A stretch of DNA of 51,441 nucleotides, taken from positions 1-51,441 of the forward strand of contig JAJXUA010000005.1 in assembly GCA_021783275.1 (NCBI GenBank), written 5' to 3'. A program made the translations under genes and the position numbers. Below are positions 3,470 through 39,234 of this stretch, in pieces; position 1 is the first letter of the stretch; every line of letters starts with the position of its first letter. Source of the stretch: Pseudomonadota bacterium (lineage in GTDB: Bacteria > Pseudomonadota > Gammaproteobacteria > Burkholderiales > Thiobacillaceae). The notes under the pieces are model-generated. The model searched no databases. It had not been told where the DNA came from and saw nothing but the letters and a program-made list of their open reading frames with translations.

Positions 3470-3537
3470 GACAGGTAGCAGGAAAGACCGGATGGGTTCT
3501 GATTGTAACCAAAGCCCGTGTTTTCGAGAGACCGGCA

Positions 3538-3553
3538 TGGCATAGCCCTTGCT
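3538..3553 (+). promoter_or_regulatory. Sigma-54 (RpoN) promoter for the flippase/glycosyltransferase operon
   Basis: The 16-mer TGGCATAGCCCTTGCT matches the sigma-54 consensus TGGCAC-N5-TTGCW, with the GG and GC dinucleotides at the required spacing. It lies in the aroB-wzx gap and points to the right, placing the start of transcription near 3564 and leaving a leader of roughly 165 nt before the flippase gene. Two further matches of the same quality lie at 42291-42306 and 47192-47207. Confidence 0.82.
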
Positions 3554-3640
3554 GGCCTTACGTCCATTTAGAATGACGCGCATGGCATTCCTGAAACCCC
3601 TGTTTTCCCTTTCCACCCGGCATGCTGACGGGTCATGGCA

Positions 3641-3657
3641 CACGCCGGCCCGGCGTG
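3641..3657 (+). other. GC-rich hairpin in the flippase leader
   Basis: A perfect 7-bp stem, CACGCCG/CGGCGTG, with a 3-nt loop lies inside the predicted leader between the sigma-54 promoter and the flippase start. No T-run follows, so it does not look like a simple intrinsic terminator. It could stall polymerase, stabilise the mRNA or be incidental. Confidence 0.45.
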
Positions 3658-3730
3658 GGCCCGCATCCCCTGTTGCCGTTTCGACAGGGACGGCGAGACC
3701 TCGTCACCCCGCCGGATTGCCGGGACGCCC

Positions 3731-5191: not shown

Positions 5192-5208
5192 CTCTCTAGA
5201 TAGCGCAC

Positions 5209-13700: not shown

Positions 13701-13938
13701 TATTGAAGCCAAGGATCGCATGATCCGCAGTGGCCGCTGGAAGCTGAGCTATCAGCCGCTGAGTGAGGGCTATCTGCTGCAACTCTTCGATGTCATCGCC
13801 GACCCGATGTGCAAGTCCAACGTGATTGATCAACATCCGGATATTGCCAATCCGCTTTGGGACAAACTGCGTGCATGGATCAATCCTCCGGACTTACACT
13901 TGGGCACTTCCGCAACTTTGAAAGCATCTTCGTGTTGA
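10705..13938 (+). CDS. Large fusion: family 2 glycosyltransferase, membrane region and sulfatase-like (alkaline phosphatase superfamily) domain
   Basis: This 1077-residue protein has three parts. Residues 1 to about 230 are a GT2 domain (TLIATVRNEATTIRAF, VDGASTDGT, and AVTDAGC in place of a clear DxD). Residues about 235-560 hold six to eight hydrophobic segments. From residue 583 comes a sulfatase-like domain with metal ligands in NILMIGSDTLRADRLG and in SDHGMEFFEHDSWGQG near residue 866. The expected formylglycine motif C/S-x-P-x-R is replaced by TAPSLISMLTG: Thr630 sits at the nucleophile position and the conserved Arg is Leu. Thr nucleophiles are known in phosphoethanolamine and phosphoglycerol transferases of the same superfamily, so a phosphotransferase or non-FGly hydrolase is possible. 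The start at 10705 overlaps the previous stop (ATGA). Confidence 0.88.
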   Translation: MTFTLIATVRNEATTIRAFVDSLLQQQRPADEILIVDGASTDGTREILEDYAQRGLLRVISQPCNIAEGRNLGIAAATGTHLAVTDAGCNVDAAWLAEIERCFASDCAPDVVAGNFRFETHTRFEEAVVHATFQPNRDQSETARFYPSSRSVAFTKAAWIQAGGYPEWLYAAEDTLFNIRMRQLGLRFVFCRDAFVRWRPRESWRALARQRINFSRGNARVGIGTAGYLTNLKVHGLFLLLLLGSLLWLPLLAAALALASLHVYRHLWPQASRTTVGMGGAMRMRVLGVMTFVRVVNLYGFLRGRLDRRIDPRYRSRQLAYMGVDSVDALDLSDPAGSLRAKWQLPPDRSRVLIEWLGLGTAACGLIAWMIAGSAKWDGLLPLVIVAATGTLALLIKSMTDFSQTGPRIRKEVLTHYRRYTLFALARLSAWAFAIMLFTGGCGLWVYFMLDTVIGQPGSGEFAGLAAGLGMVAGFLLQFLRKLRFNPGLLVASMHYRMSRLYRLWAWATPARIARIETLGMLATAILFLASSWQLVTQNRTGELIALWAATLFVVGTVRWASWQPAAALPQRHPGRSADSRPNILMIGSDTLRADRLGALGYRRAITPCIDQLAMQGALFSQCYVPCARTAPSLISMLTGTWPHTHGIRDNFVADAETRLDIDTLPRLLRDAGYHTAALSDWCGGDMGKFNFGFEHVDVPDDQWNLKYLIRQGPKDLRLFVSLFTHNRLGRLLLPEVYYLGGVPMTQSMGKRARRLVSRLASEAEPFFLNVFYSTTHPPFASEWPGYTRFSDPAYAGESKFAMARLTDPFEIIRRQGAPREEFDLDQIIDLYDGCVAEFDNEVGKMLAHVDACGLAGNTLVVVYSDHGMEFFEHDSWGQGNSAIGEASPRIPLVIRDPRVPARGKIDAVVRSIDLAPTLLELCGLPQTGHMDGVSLASCLTPAGACPELDAYNETGIWIADIPGLPEQHLRYPDLLGLMEVPDRARGTLAIKPEFATRIIEAKDRMIRSGRWKLSYQPLSEGYLLQLFDVIADPMCKSNVIDQHPDIANPLWDKLRAWINPPDLHLGTSATLKASSC

Positions 13939-14700: not shown

Positions 14701-15789
14701 ATGACGACACCCCCGGATGGTCAGCTCGCTGCTAGCTCGTGCGTGGCAACGGAGCGCAGCCCCCTTTGTTTCCGCAGCCCTATTTTCATCCTCGGTATCG
14801 TGCAGCGGTCCGGGACCAATTTCCTGAACAATCTGGTGCTGCTGCATCCCGATGTACGTTCCCCAGGCATCGTGTGGGAGGATTTTTATCTGGCCCCGGC
14901 AGATCGGCTGAGTGACTACGCGGCCGCCCTGCAGCCAAGCTGGAATTCCGGTTGGCGCGAGAAGCTTGGGCAAGCGCTGGGCGAAGACACGGTGATGCGG
15001 CATCTCGGCGATGCGCTGATCCGGTTGATGGAAGATCAGTATCGCCATTGCGTCGCTGCGGGGACTCAACGAGCGGCCGAAGCATCGGCCGTAGCGCTGG
15101 TGACGGCCACGCCCAATACCCGTAACCTCGATCAGTTTTTTCGGCTATTTCCAGCCGCCGCGCCGCTTCTGATCGTGCGCGATGGTCGAGCGACGGTCGA
15201 GTCCGGCGTACGCAGTTTTGGCTGGGACTATGAGGAAGCAATCCGCGCCTGGGTCGCCAGCGGGCAGCGCATACTCGACTTTTGCGCGAACCCGGAACAC
15301 GGCGGACGATATCTTCTGACACGTTATGAACGGCTGTTTCTCGACCCCAAGACAGAGATGCAGCGCATTCTGGAATTTCTGAAACTCGAACCGGCCAATT
15401 ACGATTTCGAAGCCTGCGCCAAGTTAGGTCTGATGGGGTCCTCCGAGTTAAAACAAAACGGCGCGTCGACGCTGCATTGGAAATACGTGGACAAGCCAAA
15501 ACACTTCAACCCGCTGGCGCGGGCCAGCGAGTGGACAGAACCGATGCGCCAGCGCTTCTACTATCTCGCGGGCCCTACGATGACCGCACTGGGTTACGAA
15601 CTTGAAGCAGCCGACAGGGCGCTGGCGCCGCAGAGGGCCGCGTGGAATCGGTGGATGGATTGGCTTTACGCGCTGGAGTTGCGACTTCGCAGAAGCTTTC
15701 CGCCGGGGGCTGCCTGGCTCAAACGCCTGCGTTACCGGTTGCTGAAGGCGCCCGTGACCATTACCCCGACTCCCCGCAAACCCGATTGA
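14701..15789 (+). CDS. Sulfotransferase family protein
   Basis: This 362-residue protein should transfer a sulfuryl group from PAPS to a hydroxyl or amino group of a carbohydrate. The 5'-phosphosulfate loop is seen as FILGIVQRSGTNFL near residues 28-41. The 3'-phosphate-binding region is LLIVRDGRATVESGVRSFG near residues 157-175. There is no signal peptide, consistent with a cytoplasmic PAPS-dependent enzyme acting on lipid-linked intermediates. The C-terminus is basic and ends in a Pro/Thr-rich tail. It is one of three sulfotransferases in the window and the only one in the plus-strand operon; no PAPS biosynthesis genes are nearby. Confidence 0.87.
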   Translation: MTTPPDGQLAASSCVATERSPLCFRSPIFILGIVQRSGTNFLNNLVLLHPDVRSPGIVWEDFYLAPADRLSDYAAALQPSWNSGWREKLGQALGEDTVMRHLGDALIRLMEDQYRHCVAAGTQRAAEASAVALVTATPNTRNLDQFFRLFPAAAPLLIVRDGRATVESGVRSFGWDYEEAIRAWVASGQRILDFCANPEHGGRYLLTRYERLFLDPKTEMQRILEFLKLEPANYDFEACAKLGLMGSSELKQNGASTLHWKYVDKPKHFNPLARASEWTEPMRQRFYYLAGPTMTALGYELEAADRALAPQRAAWNRWMDWLYALELRLRRSFPPGAAWLKRLRYRLLKAPVTITPTPRKPD

Positions 15790-22025: not shown

Positions 22026-23200
22026 GGCCGGCGACACCGCCGCGACAGGCCGCTCCAGCGTGCGATGCGGGCAAAGTGCGGAATCTCGTCGAGCCGCGCC
22101 CGCCAGGCGGCCAGGCGTGGCAGGAAGCGGGTTTCGATCCATTGCGGATCGCGCTGCCGCATCGCCCGCGCCAGTTCCAGCGGGGTGACAAAACGCACAT
22201 CGGGGTGCGCTGCAAGCGCGGCGTGCAGAGCCGTCTCCAGCGTGTCGAAACTGTCGGCCGACTCCAGAAAATTGAAGCGATGGGTTTCAACCAGGCAGGC
22301 GCGACCCTGGCAGGTGCGCTGTCGCAGCCCGTCGAGCAGACGCTGCGGTGTATGACCGTATGCCGGTTCGAAATACACATCCCGCACCAGATAGGTCTGC
22401 CCGGCAGGCGCGCGATCCCCTGCCAGCATCGTGGCATCGACGCCGCCGGGCTGGCCGCCCGCATCACGACAGGTGGCGCGCCGCCCCGGCGTGACGATGG
22501 TCTCAATACCGGACTCGCGCCAGGCGGATTCCACTGCGGCATTCCAGACAAAGGTTGTGGCCACCGCCACCTGTGGCGGTGTGCCGAACACCGCATGGAA
22601 GGTGGCCACTTCGGCGGCGACTGCCGCACTGACCGCATCGTGACTCAGCGCGCACGAAGGCAACACCGACGCGTCCACCCAGCGGCTTTGCAGGTGCGAA
22701 GGCAGCGTTTCGGTCGTCGCAGGCGCAGGGGATGCCAGCCAGGCGCGCACCTTCTCGTCTGTCCGGCTGGCGGTCATCAGCGCCGGTGGCCAGTAGTGGC
22801 ACTGTCCGTGCAGATGCGGCACAAACACTCCGGCGGCAATGCCCTGCTGCAAAGCCTGGCGCACAGGCTCAAATACGCGGTCGGTCAATGGCAGGGCGTG
22901 ATAGTCAACCCCGCCCGATGCGGCGATGCGGGCACCGTCCGGCACTTCGAGTATGACGCCCAGCGTCATCATCGCAGGGCGGCCGGTGTGATCGCGCACC
23001 CTCTGGAGCAGGGCCGACAGCCGCTGCAGCGCCGCCGCCTGCGCCAGCGGTCCCGCACCCCAGTCGTCGCTTTCGATCACCAGCACCGGCATACGCAGCA
23101 CCGGTTCGCGCCAGCGCGCCCGCAAAGGCCGGGCAAACGCCAGCACGATGCCCAGCACTAGCAGGGCCAGCAGCACAGTCAGGGGCATCGCCACGCTCAT
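22022..23200 (-). CDS. Membrane-anchored polysaccharide deacetylase-like protein
   Basis: This 392-residue protein has one N-terminal membrane anchor (PLTVLLALLVLGIVLAFARP), so the rest probably faces the periplasm. The first conserved strand carries VLVIESDDWGAG, equivalent to CE4 motif 1 with paired Asp. FVPHLHGQCHYWP near residue 150 supplies His residues at the position of motif 2. A later strand, ACLVETHRFNFL near residue 300, could provide the third motif. These are not the canonical NodB sequences, so it belongs to a divergent branch of the superfamily and activity is uncertain. It overlaps the genes on both sides by 4 bp. Confidence 0.75.
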   Translation of the reverse strand: MSVAMPLTVLLALLVLGIVLAFARPLRARWREPVLRMPVLVIESDDWGAGPLAQAAALQRLSALLQRVRDHTGRPAMMTLGVILEVPDGARIAASGGVDYHALPLTDRVFEPVRQALQQGIAAGVFVPHLHGQCHYWPPALMTASRTDEKVRAWLASPAPATTETLPSHLQSRWVDASVLPSCALSHDAVSAAVAAEVATFHAVFGTPPQVAVATTFVWNAAVESAWRESGIETIVTPGRRATCRDAGGQPGGVDATMLAGDRAPAGQTYLVRDVYFEPAYGHTPQRLLDGLRQRTCQGRACLVETHRFNFLESADSFDTLETALHAALAAHPDVRFVTPLELARAMRQRDPQWIETRFLPRLAAWRARLDEIPHFARIARWSGLSRRCRRP

Positions 23201-24117
23201 CGATACCCCATCCGTTCAGCCACCGCAGCGACCCGGGGCAGGATGCGTTCGATCCGTTCGCGATTGCGCCCGTCTCGCCATTTGTCCAGGCGGATTTCGG
23301 AAAACGCGTTGTAGGGAATATCGAGTACCTGCGCGCAATGCGCTTGCAGCCGCGCGTCAAAAGCCAGTCCGCAGCCGTCGAAGACGTGGCGAAACGTGGC
23401 GACCGGATCGCGCAGAAAATCCTCGTAAAACACCTCGACCCATTGTGCGGGCGGCAACGCGGCTTGTGCATCGAGGATCGCGCCATTGATCGCGGCATAC
23501 TGGAACGCGGCAACCTCTTCCACCGGGGCAGCCAGATAGCGACGCCAGCCTTCCGCCAGAAAAAAACACCACTGATCGTACTGGCCGTTTTCCACTGCCA
23601 CGGTGTCCGGCAAGGCCAGCGACCAGGTGGCAAATTCGTCGGGCTTGCGCCAGCCCTCGATCAGCGAATTGAGATTGTCGCCCGGACTGCGCTTGACGAA
23701 AACGAACACCGCATCGGGAAACAGCGTATGCAGATAGGGGATGCACAGGCCGTTCTGGTTGTTCTTGTCGACCCAGCGGTGCTGTCCTGTCCAGGCGTAA
23801 AAATAGCGGCTGGCGCGATCACGGTCTTGCGGGGACGCGTCGCGCGCATCCAGGGCGTGGGTATCCCAGTGCTTGTCGGACGGCGGATGCAGGTCGCTCC
23901 ACCAGTCATGGGTTTCGCGATGCAGGCTGCCGATTTCACGCGATTCTGAAAGCGTTTTATAGACCAGCGTGGTGCCCGCACGCGAACACCCCACCACAAT
24001 AATCGGGCGGCGTGCGCGAACCGGCCACGCATCCCAGCGCCGACCACGCACCGCCCGAACAACTTGACGGCTGTGATGGCGCAGCGTTTTTCTGACCTTG
24101 TCGAGGAAATCCCTCAA
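23197..24117 (-). CDS. Sulfotransferase family protein
   Basis: This protein of about 306 residues has the PAPS 5'-phosphosulfate loop IIVVGCSRAGTTLVYKTL near residue 38 and the 3'-phosphate region VFVFVKRSPGDNLNSLIEG. The segment WVDKNNQNG between them is also typical of carbohydrate sulfotransferases. A TTG at 24117 is preferred as the start because an AGGGGG ribosome-binding sequence lies just upstream; longer in-frame starts exist up to 24261 but would overlap the divergent gene. It is the first gene of the minus-strand group that runs to the TPR gene, and overlaps its downstream neighbour by 4 bp. Confidence 0.85.
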   Translation of the reverse strand: MRDFLDKVRKTLRHHSRQVVRAVRGRRWDAWPVRARRPIIVVGCSRAGTTLVYKTLSESREIGSLHRETHDWWSDLHPPSDKHWDTHALDARDASPQDRDRASRYFYAWTGQHRWVDKNNQNGLCIPYLHTLFPDAVFVFVKRSPGDNLNSLIEGWRKPDEFATWSLALPDTVAVENGQYDQWCFFLAEGWRRYLAAPVEEVAAFQYAAINGAILDAQAALPPAQWVEVFYEDFLRDPVATFRHVFDGCGLAFDARLQAHCAQVLDIPYNAFSEIRLDKWRDGRNRERIERILPRVAAVAERMGYR

Positions 24118-24184
24118 AATGCCCCCTGTGGCGATGTCCTTCAATGGCTGGCGTATCCTGCATGTCGGGCAGGCTCGATAGCCA

Positions 24185-24200
24185 TACAGGATTCGTGCCA
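24185..24200 (-). promoter_or_regulatory. Possible weak sigma-54 promoter for the minus-strand group
   Basis: On the minus strand TGGCACGAATCCTGTA has a perfect -24 element (TGGCACG) but CTGT instead of TTGC at -12. It lies 68 bp upstream of the TTG start of the sulfotransferase gene, in the 142-bp divergent gap. Its position and the three strong matches elsewhere in the locus make it worth noting, but the missing -12 GC weakens it. Confidence 0.35.
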
Positions 24201-24259
24201 ACCCACCAGCTCGTTTATATTGGCGACCATTATCCCGTAACACACCGACACGACACACC

Positions 24260-26086
24260 ATGGATGGTATTTTTGGCTGGCTGGGCGACCACGGCGCGCA
24301 TCAGGAGTTGATCCGGCAAATGGGCACGGCGGCCAATCTGTCGCCGGAAGCCTTGCTGCATGCCCACAGCAGCCAGATGCTCGGGGTGGCGGCGTGCTCG
24401 CGTTTTGGCAAAGCCGAAATCCATGTCGAAAATGGTCTCGCGGCCACGCTGACCGGGCGGCCACGCTTTCTCGACGAAGGGCTTGCCTTCATTGCGCGTG
24501 ACCGCACCCCGGCCGTTGCCGTGGCCCATGGCTGGCTGCGTTTTGGCGAGCAGTTGCCCACGCTGATGGAAGGCAACTTTGCCTTCGCCGTGATCGAACC
24601 GCTGAAGAAAAAAGCCTGTCTGGTGCTCGACCGGACAGGCGCCGAACGCCTGTGTTATGCGCATCACCACGATCACCTGATATTCGGCACCAGCGTGCAG
24701 GCCGTTGCCGCCCATCCTGCGCTGGATCGCCATATCGACCCGCAGGCGATCTACGACTATCTGTACTTTCACACCATTCCGGCGCCGCGCACGCTGTATC
24801 GACGCATACACAAGCTGCTGCCGGGGCAGATGCTCACCCTGAGCAATGGCCGCATACAAACCCGGTTTTACTGGCACGCCGACTACACCCCGGTCGAGGC
24901 TGACTTCGCCACCCACCGCGCCCGGTTTCGCAGCACGCTGGATCAGGCGGTGCGCGATGCCGATGCACCGGCCACTGCCGCATTTCTGTCGGGCGGCACC
25001 GACAGTTCCACCGTGGTGGGCGCGCTGACGGCGGCGCGCGGCCAGCCGGTCGATACATTTTCCATCGGCTTCGACGCGGCAGGCTTTGACGAAATGGAAT
25101 ATGCGCGCTGCGCGGCCGAACGCTACGGATGCCGCGCCAACGAGTATTACCTCAAACCGGCGGATATCGTGACGGCGATTCCGGTCATCGCCAGCGAATA
25201 CGACGAGCCCTTTGGCAACAACTCGGCCGTACCCACCTATTTCTGCGCCCAGCGCGCGCGCGAAGCGGGCTTCGAACACATGCTCGCGGGCGATGGCGGA
25301 GACGAAATTTTCGGCGGCAACGCCCGCTATGCCAAACAGCGGCTGTTCGAAAACTACGCCCGCCTGCCCGCCCTGTTGCGGCGCGGGGTCATCGAACCGA
25401 TCGCCCGCCTGCCCGGCTTGTCCGGCCATTTCCCCCTGTCCAAGCTCAACAGCTACCTGTCCCAGGCCCGGGTGGGTTTGCCCTTGCGGCTGGAAAGTTA
25501 CAACTTCCTGCACCGCACCCCGCTGGAACAGATTTTCGCTCCCGGCTTCATTCATGCGTTTGACCCTGCCGTTACCGATCAGGCGCTCACCGAGGTCTAC
25601 GCGCGCACGGCCTCGCCGCATTACCTCAACCGCATGATGCATCTCGACCTGAAATTCACCCTCGCCGACAACGACCTGCGCAAGGTCGGCAGCATGACTG
25701 AAGCCGCCGGAATCGAAGTGCATTACCCCTTGCTGGATGACCGCATGATGGCCTTTGCCCATCATTTGCCAGTTGATTACAAGGTGCGCGGGCAAAAGCT
25801 GCGCTGGTTTTTCAAGGCCGCGCTCGACGACCTGCTGCCGGAAAAAATCATCCAGAAGCGCAAGCACGGTTTTGGTTTGCCGTTCGGTGTCTGGAGCACG
25901 CAGTACGCGCCGCTGGGCGAAATCGTCGGCGACAGCCTGTCGGACTTCAAGAAACGCGGCTGGATACAGCCCGCCTATCTGGATCACATGCTGGCCATGC
26001 AGCGCGGCCCGCACGCCAGCTATTACGGCGTGATGATCTGGGTGACGATGATGCTGGAACGCTGGTTGCAGGCCAACGGGCACTGA
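24260..26086 (+). CDS. Asparagine synthetase-like amidotransferase homologue lacking the catalytic Cys
   Basis: This 608-residue cytoplasmic protein has the two-domain layout of glutamine-dependent asparagine synthetase. The N-terminal glutaminase-type domain begins MDGIFGWLG: the invariant Cys2 nucleophile is Asp, and the usual RGPD segment is not found. The C-terminal ATP-pyrophosphatase domain keeps the PP-loop LSGGTDSSTVV at residues 243-253 and the downstream LAGDGGDEIFGGNARY. The synthetase half therefore looks active while glutamine hydrolysis looks lost. This recalls beta-lactam synthetase and carbapenam synthetase, which also lack the Cys and do not use glutamine. It is transcribed alone, divergently from a sulfotransferase gene and converging on the polymerase gene. 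An amide- or lactam-forming modification of the polysaccharide is conceivable. Confidence 0.87.
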   Translation: MDGIFGWLGDHGAHQELIRQMGTAANLSPEALLHAHSSQMLGVAACSRFGKAEIHVENGLAATLTGRPRFLDEGLAFIARDRTPAVAVAHGWLRFGEQLPTLMEGNFAFAVIEPLKKKACLVLDRTGAERLCYAHHHDHLIFGTSVQAVAAHPALDRHIDPQAIYDYLYFHTIPAPRTLYRRIHKLLPGQMLTLSNGRIQTRFYWHADYTPVEADFATHRARFRSTLDQAVRDADAPATAAFLSGGTDSSTVVGALTAARGQPVDTFSIGFDAAGFDEMEYARCAAERYGCRANEYYLKPADIVTAIPVIASEYDEPFGNNSAVPTYFCAQRAREAGFEHMLAGDGGDEIFGGNARYAKQRLFENYARLPALLRRGVIEPIARLPGLSGHFPLSKLNSYLSQARVGLPLRLESYNFLHRTPLEQIFAPGFIHAFDPAVTDQALTEVYARTASPHYLNRMMHLDLKFTLADNDLRKVGSMTEAAGIEVHYPLLDDRMMAFAHHLPVDYKVRGQKLRWFFKAALDDLLPEKIIQKRKHGFGLPFGVWSTQYAPLGEIVGDSLSDFKKRGWIQPAYLDHMLAMQRGPHASYYGVMIWVTMMLERWLQANGH

Positions 26087-26106: not shown

Positions 26107-27402
26107 TCAGCGCCCCTGCCAGCGCGCCGACGGATGGATCAGCGGCTGCGGTGCCGACACGGGACGCGCCTGATCGAGCACCCCGGAGAATTTCGCAGTC
26201 AACAGCAGGATGATCATCAGGTGGTAGGGCAGGTCGAAATATGCCAGGCCAAGGAACGCGCCGCCCGCGCCATAGCCGATCAGGCTGACCTGGATCATCG
26301 CCGCCAGGTCCGCCGCCCACTTGCGGTCGGGGTCGTTCTTGCAGACACGGATGATCTGCCGGGCGCGCAGCCAGGCCAGCAGCGCCAGCAGCATGAACAG
26401 TCCGAAGCCGATGAAGCCGTGTTCGCCCATCACCTCGAAATAGATGCTGTGCACATCGTGCACATTCCACGGATCGGGCGCGTACTGGCGGAAGGTCTGC
26501 GGGCGGAACATTTCGAAGCCACCGCCCATCACGTTGGCCGAGGCCACATTGAACGCGGTATGCCAGGCGTTGATCCGGCCCAGCGCCGACTGGTCTTCCT
26601 GGTAGGTTTCGATGGTGCCCATGCGGTCATACCAGGCCTGCGGCAGCACCGCTGCCATGATGCCAACCGCAGCAATCATGTACACCGCCATGATGAATTT
26701 CTTGCGGCTCTTGAACCAGAGGAACACGCCCATCGCCAGGATCGCCACCAGCGCGCCACGCGACTGGCTGCCGATGGCGGCCACCCCGGTCAGCACCATC
26801 GCACCCGACAGACCCAGCTTCATCCAGCCCCGGGTTTCCTGCAGGTGCAGATAACGGATGAGCGGTATCGTCATGATCAGCGCCAGCGCCATTTCATTGT
26901 TGCCACCGATGAAAGTGCCGGCCGGCCCCTGTACCCGGAATTCACCGCCATTGACGATGGTGAAGATGCCGCCCTTGATGCCGTAGTAGCCCAGCGACAG
27001 CGCAATGATCCAGATCATCCAGTTGATCTGCCTGCGCTCCGTGATCATCATCACGATGAGAAAAATCATCAGCTGGATTTTCCACACCTTGTTCCATTGC
27101 ACCCAGGCGAGATCGGGATAAAACGAAAACACCGTGGTGGTGTACATCCACGCGATGAAGATCAGCAGCACGATGGTTTCGCGCGTCCACAGCATGGCCT
27201 TCTTGTCGCGCGACAGCACAAACGCAGCGATCGTGACCAGCCCTACAATCATCGAGAACGGGAAATCGTAGGCAAAGCCCCAAGTCTGGCGGTGCGGGTT
27301 CATGTACGCCAGCCAGGACCACAGCAGTATCCCGATCCAGGGCCGCTTGAAGACCATGGGCAGGAGGCCGAAGATGATCGCGGTGACAACAATATCTCTC
27401 AT
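26107..27402 (-). CDS. O-antigen ligase/Wzy-like polymerase, exosortase A-associated
   Basis: This 431-residue polytopic membrane protein with about ten hydrophobic segments matches the putative O-glycosylation ligase or polymerase associated with exosortase A loci (TIGR03097-type). The Wzy_C-like features are GSQSRGALVAILAMG near residue 210 and the large periplasmic loop ending DVHSIYFEVMGEHGFIGFG near residue 325. It should polymerise repeat units or ligate glycan to an acceptor on the periplasmic face. It is the last gene of the long minus-strand XrtA operon, 3 bp after the PaaK-like gene. The next gene is convergent. Confidence 0.9.
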   Translation of the reverse strand: MRDIVVTAIIFGLLPMVFKRPWIGILLWSWLAYMNPHRQTWGFAYDFPFSMIVGLVTIAAFVLSRDKKAMLWTRETIVLLIFIAWMYTTTVFSFYPDLAWVQWNKVWKIQLMIFLIVMMITERRQINWMIWIIALSLGYYGIKGGIFTIVNGGEFRVQGPAGTFIGGNNEMALALIMTIPLIRYLHLQETRGWMKLGLSGAMVLTGVAAIGSQSRGALVAILAMGVFLWFKSRKKFIMAVYMIAAVGIMAAVLPQAWYDRMGTIETYQEDQSALGRINAWHTAFNVASANVMGGGFEMFRPQTFRQYAPDPWNVHDVHSIYFEVMGEHGFIGFGLFMLLALLAWLRARQIIRVCKNDPDRKWAADLAAMIQVSLIGYGAGGAFLGLAYFDLPYHLMIILLLTAKFSGVLDQARPVSAPQPLIHPSARWQGR

Positions 27403-27405
27403 GAC

Positions 27406-28818
27406 TTACGCATTTCCCTGGCTGGCGGCGGGCAGATCGGCCCCGGCGACGGCCGGAGCCAGTGTCGGGGCAACTGCGACATGGCTGACCACATAGCGAT
27501 GCTTGCCCGACGCTTCGGCCGCAATGTGATCCTGAAGTTTCAGTTCGATGATGGCCGTCGGCCCGAGCCGGGCCTGCAGGCCGGAAATCACGGCCTCACG
27601 GCCTGACGCATTCCAGTCGGCTCCCGGCACGATCTGCACCTCGATGCGGTCTATCGCATGCTGGATCAGCTTGAACTGTGCCACCCCCGCCACCGCGCGC
27701 AGCACATAAATCACCGCCAGCGCATGCAGGATACGACCATCAGCGGTGACGACAAAATCCGTCTGGCGGCCGATCACGCTGTCGATCACGGCCAGCCCGC
27801 GCCCGCCCGGGTCAGTGCGCCCGCTACGACTGACTATATCGCCGGTGCGATAGCGAATGAAAGGCTGCGCCTCGGAGACCAGGCTGGTGATCACTGCCTC
27901 GCCTTCATCGGCCGGCTGGCCGGTGGCGTCGAGCACTTCAACGAGATGGGTTTCGCTCATCTGCAACAGCACGCCATCCGGCGATTCCAGCGCAATCAAC
28001 CCGGCGTCGCGGGCGCCATACTCGACTGAAACCGGCACGCCAAACACGCGCGTGATCAGTTCGCGCTGATGCGGAAACAACGGCTCGCCGGTGGTGCTCA
28101 CCACGCGCAGGGCAGGACCGCGCAGCGCAACACCCTGCGCCTCGGCATGCGCCGCCAGCAGCGCCAGACTGCTGGCATAGCCATAGATCGCCTTGGGGTT
28201 CCACGCGCGGATCGCATCCAGATACCGATCCATGGCAGACGGCGTCATCTCGAAGGCATTGAGCAAGAGCTGGTTCACCAGCCGGTCGCGCAGGGTCTTG
28301 ATGCGGTCGGTTTTCGACAGTTCGACCGGCGCGCCCCACAGATAGACCTCACGGTCGCCCGGTTCGACCCCCCACCAGCGCCTGGCACGCAGGCGACCGG
28401 CAGCGTCGGCTGCCTGACGGCTACGGCCAAAATGGAAAATCAGTGGCTCTCCGCTGGAGCCGCCGGTGGTGTAGCGGAAAACGCCCCCGGGCACCTCGCG
28501 CCACATCAGTTGATCCGCGTGGCTACGGGCATCGCGCTTGTCCATGGTCGGCAATCGGTTCAAGTCGCTGATCTGCACCGCGCCTGCGCGCACCGCATCG
28601 TCCAGTCCGGCTGCGCGCAAACGCGTGGCATGCCAGGGGCTATGGGCCAGCGCGACCTGTAGCAAGCGATTCAATCGCCGGGTTTGCGCAAGTGCCATGT
28701 CGTCGACAGACAGCCACTGGCTGCGCTCGAGTTCGGCCAGCATGGTCCAGGTCGGGCGCTGCATCGCCGCTTCCTGCGCACGAAACACCGCGCGCGCAAA
28801 CCAGGCAGGCACACTCAT
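27406..28818 (-). CDS. PaaK/CapK-like adenylate-forming enzyme
   Basis: This 470-residue protein belongs to the phenylacetate-CoA ligase/CapK group of adenylate-forming enzymes, often found in capsule and exosortase clusters. The ATP-binding loop is RYTTGGSSGEPLIFHFG near residue 115. The adenylation core continues with SVEYGARDAGLIALES and FIRYRTGDIVSR, where the Asp binds the AMP ribose. The C-terminal domain is shorter than in PaaK. It probably activates an acyl group for transfer onto the polysaccharide or a carrier; the acid is unknown. It overlaps the upstream sulfotransferase gene by 4 bp (ATGA). Confidence 0.85.
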   Translation of the reverse strand: MSVPAWFARAVFRAQEAAMQRPTWTMLAELERSQWLSVDDMALAQTRRLNRLLQVALAHSPWHATRLRAAGLDDAVRAGAVQISDLNRLPTMDKRDARSHADQLMWREVPGGVFRYTTGGSSGEPLIFHFGRSRQAADAAGRLRARRWWGVEPGDREVYLWGAPVELSKTDRIKTLRDRLVNQLLLNAFEMTPSAMDRYLDAIRAWNPKAIYGYASSLALLAAHAEAQGVALRGPALRVVSTTGEPLFPHQRELITRVFGVPVSVEYGARDAGLIALESPDGVLLQMSETHLVEVLDATGQPADEGEAVITSLVSEAQPFIRYRTGDIVSRSGRTDPGGRGLAVIDSVIGRQTDFVVTADGRILHALAVIYVLRAVAGVAQFKLIQHAIDRIEVQIVPGADWNASGREAVISGLQARLGPTAIIELKLQDHIAAEASGKHRYVVSHVAVAPTLAPAVAGADLPAASQGNA

Positions 28819-29657
28819 GCCGGCCTCCGCGCCAGCGCGTGAAATCGCGCCAGCAGGTCATCACACAGGTTCACCACAGCGGGTGACAGACCATCCGGGT
28901 CGCGATGCTTCACCGAGCGTGCGTGTATGCGTGCGGCAACGCCCGCATGGAATCCCGGCAATCCGAGAAAATCATAAACCGCCGCGACTTCCTGCATGGG
29001 CTGACGCACCAGCGCCTCATAAAACACCAGACGCACACGCGGATCGGCCGCCAGCTGCTGTTCAAAAAACAGCACATTGCGGTAGAACCACATGATGGCA
29101 GCACCCTCGGCTTCACTCGCCTCTGCGTGAAACAGCGCGGCCAGCAACTCCCGGGTGGCGGGCGACATGCCCCGCCCGCGCCAGTCTGCCGCATCGCCTT
29201 CGGACAGCCGCTTCCACTGCGGCACGAAATTGCCGAACGAACGGATAGCCGAGTGCACGCTGTCGCGCCAGTCGCGCACAACCCACAAGGTTCGGGCCGG
29301 CGCAAACGCCTCCATCAGGGTCTTGATGCGATCAAGCTCACACAGCGCCTTGATCACAAACACGGGCGCGCGACTCTCGCGACTGAGCTGCTGTATGACG
29401 TGCGGATCACGCATTTCATAGCGCACGAATGCACGCGCATCGGTTTCGTGAAACACCTGCGTGGCCGCGCTGCCATCCAGCACATCCATCAGCAGATTGG
29501 TGCCGGATCGCTGCATTCCGGCGACGAAGACATGCTGCGCGACCGGGCGTGGCCTGAGCCGCTGCCGCAGCGTTTTGCTGCGACGCCATAGCGCATGGCG
29601 GATGCGCATCGTGAGGCTGCGTGCATCATGCCCCGTGGCGGGTCGCGTCGTACTCAC
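28815..29657 (-). CDS. Sulfotransferase family protein
   Basis: This 280-residue protein has a clear PAPS-binding loop, HVFVAGMQRSGTNLLMDVL, near residue 35 and the 3'-phosphate-binding segment TLWVVRDWRDSVHSAIRSF near residue 115. A GTG at 29657 overlapping the upstream stop (GTGA) was chosen because it couples translation and avoids a long overlap; the ATG at 29606 (MRIRHALWRR) is an alternative. It is the third sulfotransferase in the window and the only one in the XrtA operon proper. It lies directly after two glycosyltransferase genes and before the adenylate-forming enzyme. Confidence 0.86.
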   Translation of the reverse strand: MSTTRPATGHDARSLTMRIRHALWRRSKTLRQRLRPRPVAQHVFVAGMQRSGTNLLMDVLDGSAATQVFHETDARAFVRYEMRDPHVIQQLSRESRAPVFVIKALCELDRIKTLMEAFAPARTLWVVRDWRDSVHSAIRSFGNFVPQWKRLSEGDAADWRGRGMSPATRELLAALFHAEASEAEGAAIMWFYRNVLFFEQQLAADPRVRLVFYEALVRQPMQEVAAVYDFLGLPGFHAGVAARIHARSVKHRDPDGLSPAVVNLCDDLLARFHALARRPA

Positions 29658-30883
29658 GGATGCACCTGCGCAGAGTGGGGACTTCCCCCACCGGCCGAAG
29701 CCAGCAAGGGCTCGAAAGCCACCAGCAGTTGGGCCACCCGCTTGTCCCACTGGTTTTCACGGGCGTGGCGGAGGATCGCTGCACGATCCCACGGATATTT
29801 GAGCGCGGCGTCCAGTGCGTGCGTCAGAGCGGCCGCATCGCCAAAGGGGACGACCGTGCCCAGTTCTGGTCGGCACACGACTTCAGCGTTGCCACCCACG
29901 TCGGTCGTCACCACCGGCAGACCGCACGCCATGGCTTCGAGAAAGACATTGGCCCAGCCCTCGTTGCGCGTGGACAGGACGAACACATCCGCCGCCGACA
30001 AGGGATATTTCAATTCCTGTGGCGGCAGCGCGCCAAGAAAATGCACACGCGCAGTCAGCCCCAGCCGGGCGACCTGTGCGTCGAGTTCGGCACGCAGATC
30101 GCCTTCCGGGCTGCCACCGCCGACGATGAGGTAATGCACATCCGGATGCTGGCTGACGAGTGCGGGCAGGCAGTCGATCACCCGGTGCATGCCCTTGCGC
30201 TCGACCAGTCCGCCAACCGAGATCAGCACGTTCGCGTTATCCGGCAATTTGTAGCGTGCGCGTGCCGCAGCACGGTCCACCGGATGGAATACGGCGACAT
30301 CCACCCCGTTGCCCACCACTTCGGTTTTGCCCGGCGCCGCCCCCAGCCGGATCGCCAGTTGCCGCAGCGAATCCGATACCGAAAATATCCGCGTCGCGGC
30401 GCGCAGCGTACGCACCAGACGCGGGCGCAAAACGGGGTTATGACTATGCGGCACTTCGGTCCCGCGCAGGGTGACCGTCACCGGCAGTTTCAGCCAGCGC
30501 CCCAGCCGGGTGGCGGCTTCGCCATCGGGATAGGCAAAGTGCGCATCGATGAGCCGCACTCCGGCGGCCTGCAAACGCCGCAGCAGCACATAACTGCCAA
30601 GCGCCATCGCCCAGCCATCCAGCCGTCGCAGCACGCCGGGCAGGGCCAGAAAACGCGGATGGTAGACCGTGATGCCCTGCTGGGTTTCCACTGCGGGCGC
30701 GGTCGGGCGATAGCCGGGGCGCAGCAGGCGTATCAGCCCCTGACCCGGAAACCAGGGCTGCGGCGACACCACCACCAGCGGGCGGTGTTTCGCCACGCGA
30801 AACATGCGCTCACGAATGAACAAGCCCGCTCCGGGACGCACTGCGCTGGGAAACAGCGAGCTGAATACCACCAGTTCAGGCAA
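29654..30883 (-). CDS. Family 4 glycosyltransferase
   Basis: This 409-residue GT-B enzyme starts at a TTG (30883) preceded by a good GGGAGG ribosome-binding site inside the end of the upstream gene, giving LPELVVFSSLFPSAVRPGAG. The donor domain has VLISVGGLVERKGMHRVIDC near residue 215 and the catalytic RNEGWANVFLEAMACGLPVV near residue 310. It overlaps the upstream gene by 8 bp and the sulfotransferase gene by 4 bp, so it is tightly coupled. Its similarity is to exosortase-associated GT4 proteins; the sugar is unknown. Confidence 0.91.
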   Translation of the reverse strand: MPELVVFSSLFPSAVRPGAGLFIRERMFRVAKHRPLVVVSPQPWFPGQGLIRLLRPGYRPTAPAVETQQGITVYHPRFLALPGVLRRLDGWAMALGSYVLLRRLQAAGVRLIDAHFAYPDGEAATRLGRWLKLPVTVTLRGTEVPHSHNPVLRPRLVRTLRAATRIFSVSDSLRQLAIRLGAAPGKTEVVGNGVDVAVFHPVDRAAARARYKLPDNANVLISVGGLVERKGMHRVIDCLPALVSQHPDVHYLIVGGGSPEGDLRAELDAQVARLGLTARVHFLGALPPQELKYPLSAADVFVLSTRNEGWANVFLEAMACGLPVVTTDVGGNAEVVCRPELGTVVPFGDAAALTHALDAALKYPWDRAAILRHARENQWDKRVAQLLVAFEPLLASAGGGSPHSAQVHP

Positions 30884-32199: not shown

Positions 32200-34119
32200 T
32201 CACGCGGCCTGCCGCTCGGTTTCGCCGAGGCCCAGCACCTGGCCGAGGAAGGCGTCAAACATCAGCACCGTCCAGAGGATAACTGAGTAGTCACGCCGAC
32301 CCGACTGGTGCGCTTCGACGACTTCGCGCAAGTAGGCCTGATTGAACAGGTCGGTGGACGCCAGCCGTTCGCCCAGCACCACGCTGCGGATAGTCGCGGC
32401 CAGCGGGCCGCGAAACCAGGCAGCGAGCGGAACCGAAAATCCCATTTTCTTGCGATACAGCACGTCGTGCGGCAAATAGGGTTCCATCGATTTTTTCAGT
32501 AGATATTTGCCTTCGGTGCCGCGCAATTTGAGATCAACCGGCAGGCCCGACACCCAGCCCATCAGCTCATGGTCGAGCAGCGGCTCGCGCACTTCGAGTG
32601 CATGCGCCATGCTCGCGCGATCCACCTTGGTGAGGATGTCACCGACCAGATAGGTTTTCATGTCGAGGTATTGCACCAGCGAGAGCGGATCGTCGGTGGG
32701 CGCGACGGTGGCGTGGCGACGCAGCACTTCCACGGCCTGGTAGCCCTGTAACTCGCGTTTGAACGCGGGTGAAAAAAGCTGCTGCCGCTGCGCGTCGGAC
32801 AACAGCGAGACGCCATGAAAATAACCTTCAACCGTATCGCGTGCCAGTGCTTCGAAGGTGGTTTTGGCGCGCAGCACCTTGGGTGCCCAGTCGGCTTTGG
32901 GATAGAGCCTGCCCAGCACGCCGAACAGCGGCCGGCGCAGCATCAGGGGCATGGCCGAACGCATCCGCTCTTCGTAGCGAAACCAGCGATAGCGCCGGTA
33001 GCCGGCAAAATGCTCATCCCCGCCGTCACCCGAGAGCGCCACTTTCACATGCTTGCGCGCCAGTTCGCAGACCCGGTAGGTCGGCAGGGCGGAAGAGTCA
33101 GCATAGGGCTCGTCATACACATTGGCGAGTTTATCCACCAGACCGAAATCATCCGCAGCCACGGTTTCGACGTGATGCGCAGTCTGGTAGCGGCTGGCCA
33201 CCTGCTGCGCGAATTCGATTTCGTTGAAGGCCGGGTCGTCGAACCCGATCGAGCAGGTGTTGACCGGGGCGCTGGATTGCGTTGCCATCATTGCCACCAC
33301 GGCGCTGGAATCGACCCCGCCCGACAGGAACGCGCCGAGTGGCACGTCGGCGATCATGCGCAGGCGGATCGATTCCTGCAAACGCTCGACCAGTTCGTCC
33401 ATGGCCGCCGCTTCGTCCTTGACCTGAACCGGCGTAAACGGCATGTCCCAATACTGTTTCGGCAGCGCGTGTGCCTCGCCGCGTTTCAGCGTGAGGGTAA
33501 AACCCGGCGGCAGCTTGCAGACACGCCTGAATATCGTGCGTGGCTCGGGCACATAGCCATAGGCGAAATACTCTTCCACCGCGAGCGGATCGATATCGCG
33601 CGGCAGGCCGGGATGCGCCATCAGCGATTTCAGCTCCGAGCCAAAAATGAATTCACCGGTATCGAGAAAAGCGTAGTACAGCGGCTTGACCCCAAAGCGG
33701 TCACGCACCACAAAGAAGGTGCCCTGATTGCGGTCCCACAGGGCAAACGCGAACATGCCGCGAAACCGGGCGACGCAGGCTTCGCCCCAGGCTTCCCAGG
33801 CGTGAACGATCACTTCGGTATCGGAGTGGGTACGGAACACGTGGCCCAGCGCTTCGAGTTCGGGCACCAGTTGCTGGAAGTTGTAGATTTCGCCGTTGAA
33901 CACGACGACAACCGATTGGTCTTCGTTGAACAGCGGCTGCTGGCCGCTGGATAAATCAATAATCGACAGCCGCCGGTGTCCCAGCCCGACTCCGGGTTCC
34001 AGATGCAGACCGCCCTCGTCGGGACCACGATGAAACTGGGTTTCATTCATGCGGTCGAGCAGGTCGCGAGAAATATCGCGTGCTTCGCGCGTATCAAAAA
34101 TGCCGGTGATGCCACACAT
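32200..34119 (-). CDS. Exosortase A system amidotransferase 1 (asparagine synthetase family)
   Basis: This 639-residue protein has both halves of a glutamine-dependent asparagine synthetase intact. The N-terminus MCGITGIFDT carries the Cys2 nucleophile and FHRGPDEGG the conserved RGPD segment. The ATP-pyrophosphatase domain starts with LSGGVDSSAVV near residue 265 and continues with ALSGDGGDEHFAGYRRY. In exosortase A loci this family (TIGR03108-like) is thought to amidate a uronic acid or similar sugar of the repeat unit. It contrasts with the homologue at 24260-26086, which lacks the Cys. The upstream 90-bp gap contains short direct repeats with a spacing of about 10-11 bp. Confidence 0.93.
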   Translation of the reverse strand: MCGITGIFDTREARDISRDLLDRMNETQFHRGPDEGGLHLEPGVGLGHRRLSIIDLSSGQQPLFNEDQSVVVVFNGEIYNFQQLVPELEALGHVFRTHSDTEVIVHAWEAWGEACVARFRGMFAFALWDRNQGTFFVVRDRFGVKPLYYAFLDTGEFIFGSELKSLMAHPGLPRDIDPLAVEEYFAYGYVPEPRTIFRRVCKLPPGFTLTLKRGEAHALPKQYWDMPFTPVQVKDEAAAMDELVERLQESIRLRMIADVPLGAFLSGGVDSSAVVAMMATQSSAPVNTCSIGFDDPAFNEIEFAQQVASRYQTAHHVETVAADDFGLVDKLANVYDEPYADSSALPTYRVCELARKHVKVALSGDGGDEHFAGYRRYRWFRYEERMRSAMPLMLRRPLFGVLGRLYPKADWAPKVLRAKTTFEALARDTVEGYFHGVSLLSDAQRQQLFSPAFKRELQGYQAVEVLRRHATVAPTDDPLSLVQYLDMKTYLVGDILTKVDRASMAHALEVREPLLDHELMGWVSGLPVDLKLRGTEGKYLLKKSMEPYLPHDVLYRKKMGFSVPLAAWFRGPLAATIRSVVLGERLASTDLFNQAYLREVVEAHQSGRRDYSVILWTVLMFDAFLGQVLGLGETERQAA

Positions 34120-34209: not shown

Positions 34210-35397
34210 TCAGCTGCCGCGCCGCAGGGTCAGGTCATAGACCGCAGCATAGGCTTCGGCCATGGCCGGAATACTGAAACGCTGCACAGCAAACTGGCGG
34301 GCAGTCTGCCCCTGTTGCTGACGCAGCATGGTGGCAGTCGCCGGTGTGGCTCGATCCGTCGCCTGTTCAACCTGGCCAGACTCAACCAAATAAGCGAGCA
34401 AGGCGCGTGCCATTTCTTCCACATCCCCTACCGACACCAGGGTGCCATTCACGCCCGGCTCAACCAGCTCGACATTGCCGCCCACTGCAGTGGCAACGAC
34501 GGGCAGGCCACTTGCCAGCGCTTCGAGCACAGTATTGGAAATGCCTTCGTTGCGGGAAGGCAGCACGAACACATCCAGCGCACGCATCAGTTCGGCAATG
34601 TCATGCCGCTCGCCCGGCAACCAGGCGAGATGGGCACAGCCCGCTGCATCCAGCAGACGCTGGCAATCGGCACGGGCATGGCCTTCGCCCACCAGAACCA
34701 GGCGCATGCTTTCTGCGTGCTCGGGTTGCAGTTGCCGCATCCGGATAAAAGCGCGCACCAGTGTGGGGTAGTCCTTGACGTCGACCATGCGGCCCGCCGA
34801 CCCGTAAACGACGACGTCATCCGGAGCAAACCCGGGTGGCAGGCAAGCCGGGCGGGTGCCACTACGCGGATGGAAATGCTGGCTATCGACGCCGTTGTAT
34901 ATCTGGTGCAGTTTGCGCGCAGGCACGCCGATGGCGAGACGCAGCCAGGTTTCCAGATCCCGGCTGACCGCGATGTAATTCGAGACGAAGGGTTGCGCAG
35001 CCCGGCGTAACAGCCGGTATTTCCAGTTCATGCCGTACAGGTCGAACATATCGCGCCCATGTTCGCCGTGAACGGTGGCACGCACGCCGACGGCCCGGGC
35101 AACAAACTGCGCTTCAAGCGCCGCCAGATTGCGGGTGTGCACCAGATCGGGTTGCAGCTGACGCAGCAGTTTCCACAGGCGACCCATCCAGCCCAGCCCG
35201 TGCCCCGGCGCGCGATGCAGTGCGTGAAACGCAACCGGCTGCGCCACGATGCGATTACGGAACGCACTGTAGTCGGTGAGGGCGACCACGGTGTGGCGAT
35301 AGCGCGCAGCGGGCAGGGTGTTGAACAGGTTGACCATGCCGTTTTCCATGCCGCCGGTACCGAAGCTATGCACCACATGCACGATATGCGGGGTCAC
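34210..35397 (-). CDS. Exosortase A-associated family 4 glycosyltransferase (TIGR03088-like, stp2 type)
   Basis: The N-terminus PHIVHVVHSFGTGGMENGMVN is the signature of a GT4 subfamily co-occurring with exosortase A. The 395-residue protein has the donor loop VYGSAGRMVDVKDYPTLVRA near residue 200 and the catalytic RNEGISNTVLEALASGLPVV near residue 290. It overlaps the exosortase gene by 4 bp (ATGA) and is followed by a 90-bp gap before the amidotransferase gene. It should add a sugar to the lipid-linked repeat unit in the cytoplasm. Confidence 0.93.
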   Translation of the reverse strand: MTPHIVHVVHSFGTGGMENGMVNLFNTLPAARYRHTVVALTDYSAFRNRIVAQPVAFHALHRAPGHGLGWMGRLWKLLRQLQPDLVHTRNLAALEAQFVARAVGVRATVHGEHGRDMFDLYGMNWKYRLLRRAAQPFVSNYIAVSRDLETWLRLAIGVPARKLHQIYNGVDSQHFHPRSGTRPACLPPGFAPDDVVVYGSAGRMVDVKDYPTLVRAFIRMRQLQPEHAESMRLVLVGEGHARADCQRLLDAAGCAHLAWLPGERHDIAELMRALDVFVLPSRNEGISNTVLEALASGLPVVATAVGGNVELVEPGVNGTLVSVGDVEEMARALLAYLVESGQVEQATDRATPATATMLRQQQGQTARQFAVQRFSIPAMAEAYAAVYDLTLRRGS

Positions 35398-36941
35398 TGG
35401 CCATCCACCCGATCCAGGGTCTGACGGAGCGCAGGCTCCATCGCGGCAGCAAACTCTGCCAGTGTCGCTTCGGCGCCAGCCGGATCGGTATCGTCATAAG
35501 GGGTGGCGATCAGCACCGACAGGCCATCGTCGCGCTGCAGACGGACGCGATCCAGGGCGAGCAGCAGTTTGCCCAGCTGGTCATTCACCACCGGCTGCTG
35601 ATTGATCAGATTCCATTGCCATGCCAGCACGCGCTGGCCATTACTGCCACGCAGCCTGGCCTGACGTATCTGGCGAGACTGACCGGCAATGGTCACGGTT
35701 TTGAGGCTTTCGCCGATGTTCGACCAGTACGGATCTTTCTGCCTGATCATGAAATTCTGCGAGTTGATCAGCTCGGCATCCTGCCTCTGCGTGGCGTAAT
35801 AATTGAGCTCGATCATGACCGGCGTCTCGCCACGGCGATACGGCTGGCGCAACTGGCGGTCTGCGCCGACCCAGTGCGGCGTCCACGTGGTGAACGCTTC
35901 CGCAGGCTGCCAGCCGGACGGGGGGCCTACCTGCAATTCGGGCAGGGTCGGCAGCGGGCGCGATGCCAGCCATATTGCATAGGCCGGCCAGAGTCCGGCG
36001 ATCGCCAGCACCGCCACAACCCCGACGAGTCCCGTCCGCGCCGCGCCTGGCGAAGCCGTCATCGCGGCAGGCGCAGGAGCGACGCTCACCGGCGCATCGT
36101 CTTCGCGCCAGAAACTGCCGATCCAGAACAGCAGCAGCATGACGATGCCGAAAAACACCCAGCCGTAGATATAGTGATCAACACCCAGCGCCAGCTTCAT
36201 GTCTGACAGATGCGCGATCATCACGATCATGTAGGCGCGGCCGCTGTTGGCAAAAATCGGCACGACGATGGCCGCGATGGAAAACAGCAGCCGCCGTTTC
36301 CACGAACGGTAGGTGAGGTAGGCGTACAGCACCCCGAGGGTGACCGAGGCAATCAGATAGCGCAGTCCGGAACAGCCTTCCACCACCGACCAGTCGCCGC
36401 TGGGGATGCTGAAAAAATTGCCTTCGCGATAGACCGGGATGCCGGTGGCCTGCAACAGGGTGACGGTGAAATCCGCTGTCACGCCCATCAGCGGCTGGAT
36501 CAGAAACTCACCCACCGGCACGGCAAAAAACAGGAACATCAAGGGAAAAAAAGCCGCCCACACCACGCGCCAGCCCAGCAAGGTCCACACCGTGGCGATC
36601 AGCATGACGATGTAGGCGTATTGCGCAATGACGTTGACGCTGCCCGCATCGGCCAGCAGCCAGCCCGCGCCCGCACCCGCCAGCACGATCAGCCCGCGCG
36701 CATCCGGCCGGGGCAGAATGCGCGCCAGTTCCGCGCGCTGGCGCCAGATCAGCCAGCTCGTGATAGGAAAAATCAGATAGCCATGGGCAAAGGTTTCAGA
36801 CCGCTCCCAGACCTCGGCCATGGAATAGAACGTCGGCCAGAAGAGTGCCGTGAGCAGCAGCAGCACACCCAGCGTGAGCACGCCCGGCCACAACCAGGGA
36901 GAACGCTGCAAGGCGCTGCCGGGTTTGGCGGATGCATTCAT
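35394..36941 (-). CDS. xrtA: Exosortase A with fused EpsI domain
   Basis: This 515-residue inner-membrane protein is the transpeptidase-like enzyme thought to cleave PEP-CTERM signals and attach the proteins to the cell surface. The catalytic triad is visible: Cys190 in VEGCSGLRYL, Arg235 in FANSGRAYMIV and His256 in VDHYIYGWVFF, between at least eight membrane segments. The last 200 residues or so form an EpsI-type (DUF3485) periplasmic domain with WTPHWVGADRQ and ELNYYATQRQ; such fusions are common in exosortase A. The ATG at 36941 overlaps the upstream stop as ATGA. No confirmed PEP-CTERM substrate lies in the window; the only candidate is the incomplete gene at 50605. Confidence 0.95.
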   Translation of the reverse strand: MNASAKPGSALQRSPWLWPGVLTLGVLLLLTALFWPTFYSMAEVWERSETFAHGYLIFPITSWLIWRQRAELARILPRPDARGLIVLAGAGAGWLLADAGSVNVIAQYAYIVMLIATVWTLLGWRVVWAAFFPLMFLFFAVPVGEFLIQPLMGVTADFTVTLLQATGIPVYREGNFFSIPSGDWSVVEGCSGLRYLIASVTLGVLYAYLTYRSWKRRLLFSIAAIVVPIFANSGRAYMIVMIAHLSDMKLALGVDHYIYGWVFFGIVMLLLFWIGSFWREDDAPVSVAPAPAAMTASPGAARTGLVGVVAVLAIAGLWPAYAIWLASRPLPTLPELQVGPPSGWQPAEAFTTWTPHWVGADRQLRQPYRRGETPVMIELNYYATQRQDAELINSQNFMIRQKDPYWSNIGESLKTVTIAGQSRQIRQARLRGSNGQRVLAWQWNLINQQPVVNDQLGKLLLALDRVRLQRDDGLSVLIATPYDDTDPAGAEATLAEFAAAMEPALRQTLDRVDGQ

Positions 36942-39232: not shown

Positions 39233-39234
39233 GT

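Follow-up and report, generated by a model that had tools for sequence, protein, structure and literature searches.

A conserved asparagine-synthetase homologue without the glutaminase cysteine in an XrtA/PEP-CTERM exopolysaccharide locus of Thiobacillaceae

In the available portions of the literature, the exopolysaccharide (EPS) cluster of Rubrivivax is described with three asparagine synthases, two of them marked with transposon insertions (PMC3684757), and two asparagine synthases were needed for floc formation according to An et al. 2016 as cited in PMC7662799. Zoogloea and Aquincola are likewise given two (PMC9012009), and the EPS gene map of Thauera shows one (PMC4784049). Loci encoding the amidotransferase TIGR03108, a FemAB (VimA-like) protein and an exosortase have been linked with the linking sugar of the T9SS and with the uronamide synthase WbpS, in an account that calls the acceptor to which exosortases attach PEP-CTERM proteins unidentified (PMC7468200, accessible part). 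A chemical precedent for amide-bearing polysaccharides comes from an EPS in which galacturonic acid carries amino acids in amide linkage (PMC4663550), and uronamides are reported in a glycan whose locus carries a putative asparagine synthase (PMC12407052), again as given in the accessible parts of both papers. A term search of the accessible text of PMC1569441 gave no mention of asparagine or amidotransferase. Within the open-licence full texts searched, as far as accessible, we found no description of an asparagine-synthetase family in XrtA loci that lacks the catalytic cysteine. The available parts of PMC3684757 and PMC7662799 do not state which of the Rubrivivax or An et al. 2016 genes is of this kind. 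A published knock-out of exactly the gene described here was considered and rejected, as the reports on Rubrivivax (PMC3684757) and Zoogloea (An et al. 2016) concern two or three asparagine synthases among which, in the text available, a Cys-less one is not told apart.

The stretch of DNA analysed (51,441 nucleotides, hereafter the window) contains an XrtA/PEP-CTERM EPS locus, which includes the glycosyltransferases stp1-3 and the following genes:

23197 to 24261, minus strand: sulfotransferase (Sulfotransfer_3), divergent neighbour, its cluster present in 7 of 56 compared loci including the window
24260 to 26086, plus strand: Cys2-less asparagine-synthetase homologue, the subject of this work; 608 aa, ATG at 24260, stop codon ending at 26086
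26107 to 27402, minus strand: putative O-glycosylation ligase TIGR03097, convergent neighbour; 593.1 bits, cut-off 188.1
27406 to 28818, minus strand: CapK/PaaK-like AMP-forming ligase homologue; NCBIfam matches under the cut-offs, no Pfam match
28815 to 29750, minus strand: sulfotransferase (Pfam)
32200 to 34119, minus strand: intact glutamine amidotransferase TIGR03108 (XrtA/PEP-CTERM, WbpS-like); 639 aa, MCGITG...HRGPDEG, 1134.6 bits, cut-off 816.9
35394 to 36992, minus strand: exosortase A (TIGR03109) fused to an EpsI domain; 363.3 bits, cut-off 208
38165 to 39274, minus strand: FemAB-family XrtA-associated protein TIGR03019 (VimA-related, a relation taken from the accessible part of PMC7468200)
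39235 to 40086, minus strand: XrtA system polysaccharide deacetylase TIGR03006
40083 to 46421, minus strand: rest of the XrtA EPS core, namely wecB-type epimerase, TIGR03015 ATPase, TIGR03016 outer-membrane protein, TIGR03018 tyrosine kinase and TIGR03007 chain-length protein
46471 to 47091, minus strand: XrtA/PEP-CTERM EPS export protein TIGR03027

The second, intact amidotransferase proposed by the initial annotation is thus present, with the refinement that it lies on the minus strand and scores well as TIGR03108. Another gene of the asparagine-synthetase family was found at most five genes away from the Cys-less gene in 12 of the 56 compared loci, in a cluster that mixes TIGR03108 with other proteins. 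The Cys-less gene itself stands on the strand opposite to its window neighbours, so that cotranscription is only putative, which counts against the reading we favour below. In the ORF list its start codon (plus strand, 24260) overlaps that of the divergent sulfotransferase (minus strand, 24261) at 24259-24262; the true start of the sulfotransferase is probably further in, because its domain match begins at residue 86. The window holds three sulfotransferase-like genes (14701-15789, 23197-24261 and 28815-29750), besides a 1110-aa protein (10606-13938, plus strand) that joins an N-terminal family-2 glycosyltransferase to a C-terminal sulfatase domain and whose cluster occurs in 6 of the 56 compared loci, including the window. 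This combination suggests a sulfated polysaccharide.

The N-terminus of the encoded protein, MDGIFGWLGDHG, starts with MDGIFGW and has neither Cys2 nor an RGPD segment, and the loop SGGTDSS is intact at residues 244-250, as had been noted from the sequence at the outset. Its parts are:

24260 to 24901, plus strand: N-terminal part resembling an Ntn glutaminase but degenerate (approximately residues 1-214), without Cys2, RGPD or the equivalents of R49, N74 and D98 of E. coli AsnB (AS-B)
24926 to 26071, plus strand: Asn_synthase (PF00733) synthetase domain (residues 223-604); 252.7 bits, Pfam cut-off 21
24989 to 25009, plus strand: PP-loop SGGTDSS (residues 244-250)
25289 to 25306, plus strand: GDGGDE motif (residues 344-349), with D345 at the position of AS-B E348, beta-lactam synthetase (bLS) Tyr348 and CarA Tyr345
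25862 to 25864, plus strand: codon of K535, equivalent to AS-B K449, bLS K443 and CarA K443

With a synthetase domain above the curated cut-off, an SGGxDS loop and the catalytic Lys K535, the protein belongs to PF00733. Lacking the Cys nucleophile and the glutamine-site residues, it does not belong to the class II AsnB-type glutamine-dependent enzymes; in P0001 the equivalents of AS-B R49, N74 and D98 are a gap, T65 and P84. Pfam recognized the Asn_synthase domain at full length, but of the glutaminase no more than its second half, as a partial GATase_7 match (model positions 64-122 of 123; 28.1 bits, cut-off 25). The best NCBIfam scores came from the TIGR03108 and AsnB families, and none of the matching NCBIfam models reached its cut-off (TIGR03108, 291.3 bits against 816.9).

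We screened 369 genomes of the class, scoring up to three candidates per genome, and found the subfamily in 54 of them at E values of 2.2e-106 or better, separated by a gap in score from the next match at 1.2e-74. The second score level includes the window's own TIGR03108 protein (3.0e-73). Across the phylum, 8 of the 398 genomes scanned passed 1e-75, and one of these 8 belongs to a different class. A tree was calculated from 398 columns of the synthetase domain of 65 proteins, 24 of them subfamily members and none of them bLS or CarA, by a quick search without bootstrap that gave long-branch warnings. All 24 members lay on one side of one branch with an SH-aLRT of 84, or 96 with the Omnitrophota homologue, and TIGR03108 formed another branch (97). 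Because the two branches are separate, the subfamily is not nested inside TIGR03108 in this tree. The long-branched sequence L180, without the Cys motif, also joined the clade at 85, which we count against the favoured reading. The same five general NCBIfam models matched all 48 members of alignment A1 and a sixth matched 47, and remnants of GATase_7 were visible to Pfam in 46 of the 48 (E of 0.01 or better). By sequence, the Cys-less proteins are a distinct conserved clade that has no name in the libraries searched. A search of viral contigs for relatives gave no match, and 341 plasmid records matched, all below 60% identity; among the ten plasmid matches listed, seven were named asnB/asparagine synthase or TIGR03108-type, two had no feature and one record was unannotated.

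Residues were compared across 56 aligned members, that is the window protein, a second copy on contig C46, the homologue L053 and proteins from 53 other genomes of the class; L054 fell below the score limit and was excluded. The second copy lies with a neighbouring sulfotransferase at G000:C46 (locus L111) 3101-5954 and shares 77.9% DNA identity with window positions 23245-26078. C46 is a contig of 5958 bases with a G+C content of 57.5% versus 61.7%, and this copy is likely from a co-binned relative, since the bin has an estimated contamination of 5.16%. Residue 2 was S in 18 members, T in 7, N in 6, R, Q, Y and G in 3 each, D in 2, another residue in 11 and Cys in none, where single N-terminal letters are uncertain because some distant start codons were picked by rule and the N-terminal part aligned poorly. 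The replacement of Cys by Asp that had been proposed therefore describes this lineage, with its 48 close relatives, and not the subfamily. As residue 2 is unconstrained across the 56 members, Asp2 can be regarded as a detail of the lineage and not as a new catalytic residue. The glutamine site is lost, with equivalents of AS-B R49 and N74 each kept in 1/56 and of D98 in 6/56 members.

The synthetase site gave the opposite picture, S244, G245, G246, D248, S249, D345, D348, E349 and K535 each being present in 56/56 members, and the TIGR03108 amidotransferase of this locus also has an Asp at the position of D345. Seven further positions (N320, N354, K395, R410, D472, R515 and K533) are invariant in the clade and occupied by other residues in the locus's own TIGR03108 protein and in two additional proteins of the Cys type, a difference that suggests another set of substrates. 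Among these, R515 stands in place of a Lys of AS-B (K429) and TIGR03108, and K533 in place of an Arg; these swaps could mean altered or lost chemistry. An assignment of R515 to the catalytic Lys (AS-B K449), and hence a changed active site, was rejected, as mapping onto E. coli AsnB places K449 at the conserved K535 and R515 at K429. The residue pattern as a whole would fit a loss of glutamine use with adenylation and amide formation kept for a different substrate pair.

The gene sits in XrtA loci and also co-distributes with them. XrtA was found above cut-off in 49 of the 54 genomes with the subfamily versus 24 of the 315 without it (Fisher 7e-37; 369 class genomes), counts in which genomes are the unit and species are non-independent events, as also in the TIGR03097 figures below. 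Both genes were on the same contig in 29 of the 49 genomes and within 30 kb in 25; four of the 29 same-contig pairs were separated by 70 kb to 2 Mb, which counts against the reading favoured below. Five of the 54 subfamily genomes lacked XrtA above cut-off (three of these had no exosortase match at all) and 24 XrtA genomes lacked the protein, which is therefore not obligatory; this, too, counts against that reading. The putative ligase TIGR03097 was above cut-off in 49 of the 54 subfamily genomes versus 9 of the 24 XrtA genomes without the subfamily; of those 49, 41 had both genes on the same contig, 36 within 30 kb and 25 within 5 kb. Neither XrtA nor TIGR03097 was above cut-off in any of the 14 control genomes (family controls).

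Two further genes varied across the 54 genomes with the subfamily. The CapK/PaaK-like ligase was found in 35 (E of 1e-40 or better) and the XrtA-linked decarboxylase TIGR03099 in 24 (E of 1e-100 or better), with both in 8 genomes, only the decarboxylase in 16, only the ligase in 27 and neither in 3 (Fisher 3e-5). They look like alternative modules, a picture that shared descent could also yield. Nine of 40 ligase matches (G064, G267, G107, G362, G147, G247, G338, G044 and G223) contained one internal in-frame stop (TGA or TAA), possibly an effect of match extension. A diamine from the PLP decarboxylase TIGR03099 was considered as the obligatory amine of the Cys-less enzyme and rejected as not general, given its limited occurrence and its absence above cut-off from the window's own genome (214.6 bits against 478.45). 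That genome encodes a nucleotide-sugar dehydrogenase in two places, and uronic acids are possible there; these genes weigh little for uronic acids, because all 14 control genomes matched as well.

Since the glutaminase is lost, the synthetase half is intact and under purifying selection and a separate intact amidotransferase is encoded in the locus, we prefer to read the protein as one with an altered amide-forming role. It is very probably part of XrtA EPS synthesis, and on its conserved residues it is likely to be an active adenylating amide synthetase without a glutaminase of its own. Taken together, we think it probable that the protein acts as a glutaminase-dead, ATP-dependent, AMP-forming amide synthetase in a dedicated step of the XrtA/PEP-CTERM exopolysaccharide pathway. 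The enzyme would adenylate a carboxylate. The acyl-AMP would then be attacked by an amine from a source other than the enzyme's own glutaminase, giving an amide, while the N-terminal part may now only shape the fold or the path of the amine. For the substrates we can offer guesses: the carboxylate could belong to a uronic acid, either in the polysaccharide itself or in a precursor that is a sugar nucleotide or is lipid-linked, a choice we put forward tentatively, and the amine might be an amino acid, an amino sugar or a diamine. The enzyme might in that case complement the WbpS-like TIGR03108 enzyme, which for its part would produce the plain uronamide.

Other explanations differ in how they deal with the missing cysteine. 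A sequencing error, a wrong start or a recent pseudogene might be suspected in a draft bin with the contamination given above. Among 51 loci in a scan of named genomes, however, 48 start with MDGI[F/Y]GW, so that Asp2 is conserved at this level, and the other three are a C-terminal fragment (L055) and two distant relatives without Cys2 (L053 from Methylothermaceae and L054 from Omnitrophota). Most of the 48 are named Thiobacillus or Hydrogenophilales, a few otherwise. Retention of Cys2 by orthologues would have spoken for an error or a recent loss; none of the 56 diverse subfamily members carries it. The gene is moreover under purifying selection in both domains, residues 1-160 giving a median dN/dS of 0.14 and residues 215-608 one of 0.10 over 64 pairs from 38 orthologues, with maxima of 0.48 and 0.27, respectively, and no pair above 1; of 42 loci considered, these were the 38 with exactly 608 codons without N, paired at DNA identities of 0.85-0.97 and dS of 0.1-1.5. 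We regard an artefact as practically refuted by these orthologues. The same data bear on a catalytically dead scaffold or regulator, for instance a heteromeric partner of the TIGR03108 enzyme, as might be proposed from the catalytic residues already gone from the glutaminase part and from the exchanges that led to R515 and K533 in the synthetase half. Pseudoenzymes usually lose residues of the nucleotide site, whereas here all 56 members retain the PP-loop, D345/D348/E349 and K535, and the synthetase domain shows a low dN/dS; we consider such a role improbable.

If the protein is active, its amine might simply be ammonia, supplied by the cell or by the glutaminase of the TIGR03108 partner, and its product a primary amide (uronamide). 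The intact synthetase site, with D345, E349 and the PP-loop as in TIGR03108, is consistent with this, as are the TIGR03108 gene in the locus and the asparagine-synthetase-family genes within five genes in 12/56 loci, and ammonia can replace glutamine for an AS-like enzyme (PMC13060819, accessible part). The seven clade-invariant residues that differ from the TIGR03108 protein and two more Cys-type proteins argue against it, and we hold an ammonia-fed amidotransferase to be rather unlikely. An intramolecular lactam, closed as by beta-lactam or carbapenam synthetase, had been suggested by the likeness of the protein to these enzymes. The missing Cys and the shared Lys (K535, K443) speak for it, and in a search of the PDB with the single sequence, which gave four matches, CarA (8.6e-8) stood just above AS-B (9.8e-7), followed by bLS (7.1e-6) and headed by 7ylz. 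Beyond the Cys the likeness was not supported: the Tyr of the cyclases is D345 in 56/56 members, the best NCBIfam scores are those of TIGR03108 and AsnB, and the family profile reversed the order, with AS-B (3.4e-31) far before bLS (2.2e-14) and CarA (7.9e-14). The profile also found three more chains that bear the name asparagine synthetase (1.9e-19 to 4.1e-19), and the locus is of the polysaccharide type and no antibiotic locus. Ring closure is therefore very unlikely. The initial proposal of a new role for this copy stands as far as an altered amide-forming role is concerned, with the glutaminase lost, the synthetase kept and a second amidotransferase nearby, and not in its lactam-synthetase likeness. 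Its further suggestion that an amine is coupled to a uronic acid may also apply.

If the protein is a glutamine-independent amide ligase as we favour, the EPS should carry substituted amides besides the uronamide expected from TIGR03108. A bolder idea, which we hold to be a long shot, concerns the missing acceptor of exosortase A. The clade could supply it by attaching an amino acid or a diamine to a uronic acid, either in the EPS or in its lipid-linked precursor, so as to leave a free amine (or side chain). XrtA would then join the cut PEP-CTERM protein to an amine made by a glutaminase-dead asparagine synthetase, and the link between protein and polysaccharide would not run only via the FemAB/VimA-like route speculated from the T9SS parallel (PMC7468200, accessible part). 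These questions bear on flocculation in activated sludge. The analysis also marks out a conserved clade tied to exosortase A, whose members NCBIfam recognizes only with scores under its cut-offs, as if they were poor amidotransferases of the glutamine-dependent kind.

Among known relatives, the WbpS-like TIGR03108 enzyme is the nearest by family, being the top NCBIfam match and encoded in the same locus, with a shared PP-loop pattern, GDGGDE motif and catalytic Lys; the Cys-less protein differs in scoring far under the cut-off, in lacking Cys2, RGPD and the glutamine-site residues, and in forming a separate clade. With E. coli AsnB it shares PF00733 and the equivalents of D238, E352 and K449, while C1, R49, N74 and D98 are lost, E348 is replaced by D345 and K429 by R515. 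The closest solved structure by sequence is 7ylz, a hydroxyamidotransferase (4.1e-20; 3.4e-37 with the family profile). The glutaminase Cys is absent from beta-lactam synthetase and CarA too, in which the ring-closing Tyr forms a dyad with a Glu (E382 in bLS, E380 in CarA). The Cys-less protein resembles them in this absence and in the Lys K443, with weak overall similarity (7.1e-6 for bLS, 8.6e-8 for CarA); because their ring-closing residue, Tyr348/Tyr345, is an Asp in all 56 members, the beta-lactam/carbapenam analogy is weak. Lasso and macrolactam cyclases are AS-like amide-bond formers that act on amines, and their profiles NF033535 and NF033561 matched the protein weakly, with 121.9 and 70.8 bits against cut-offs of 525 and 300.
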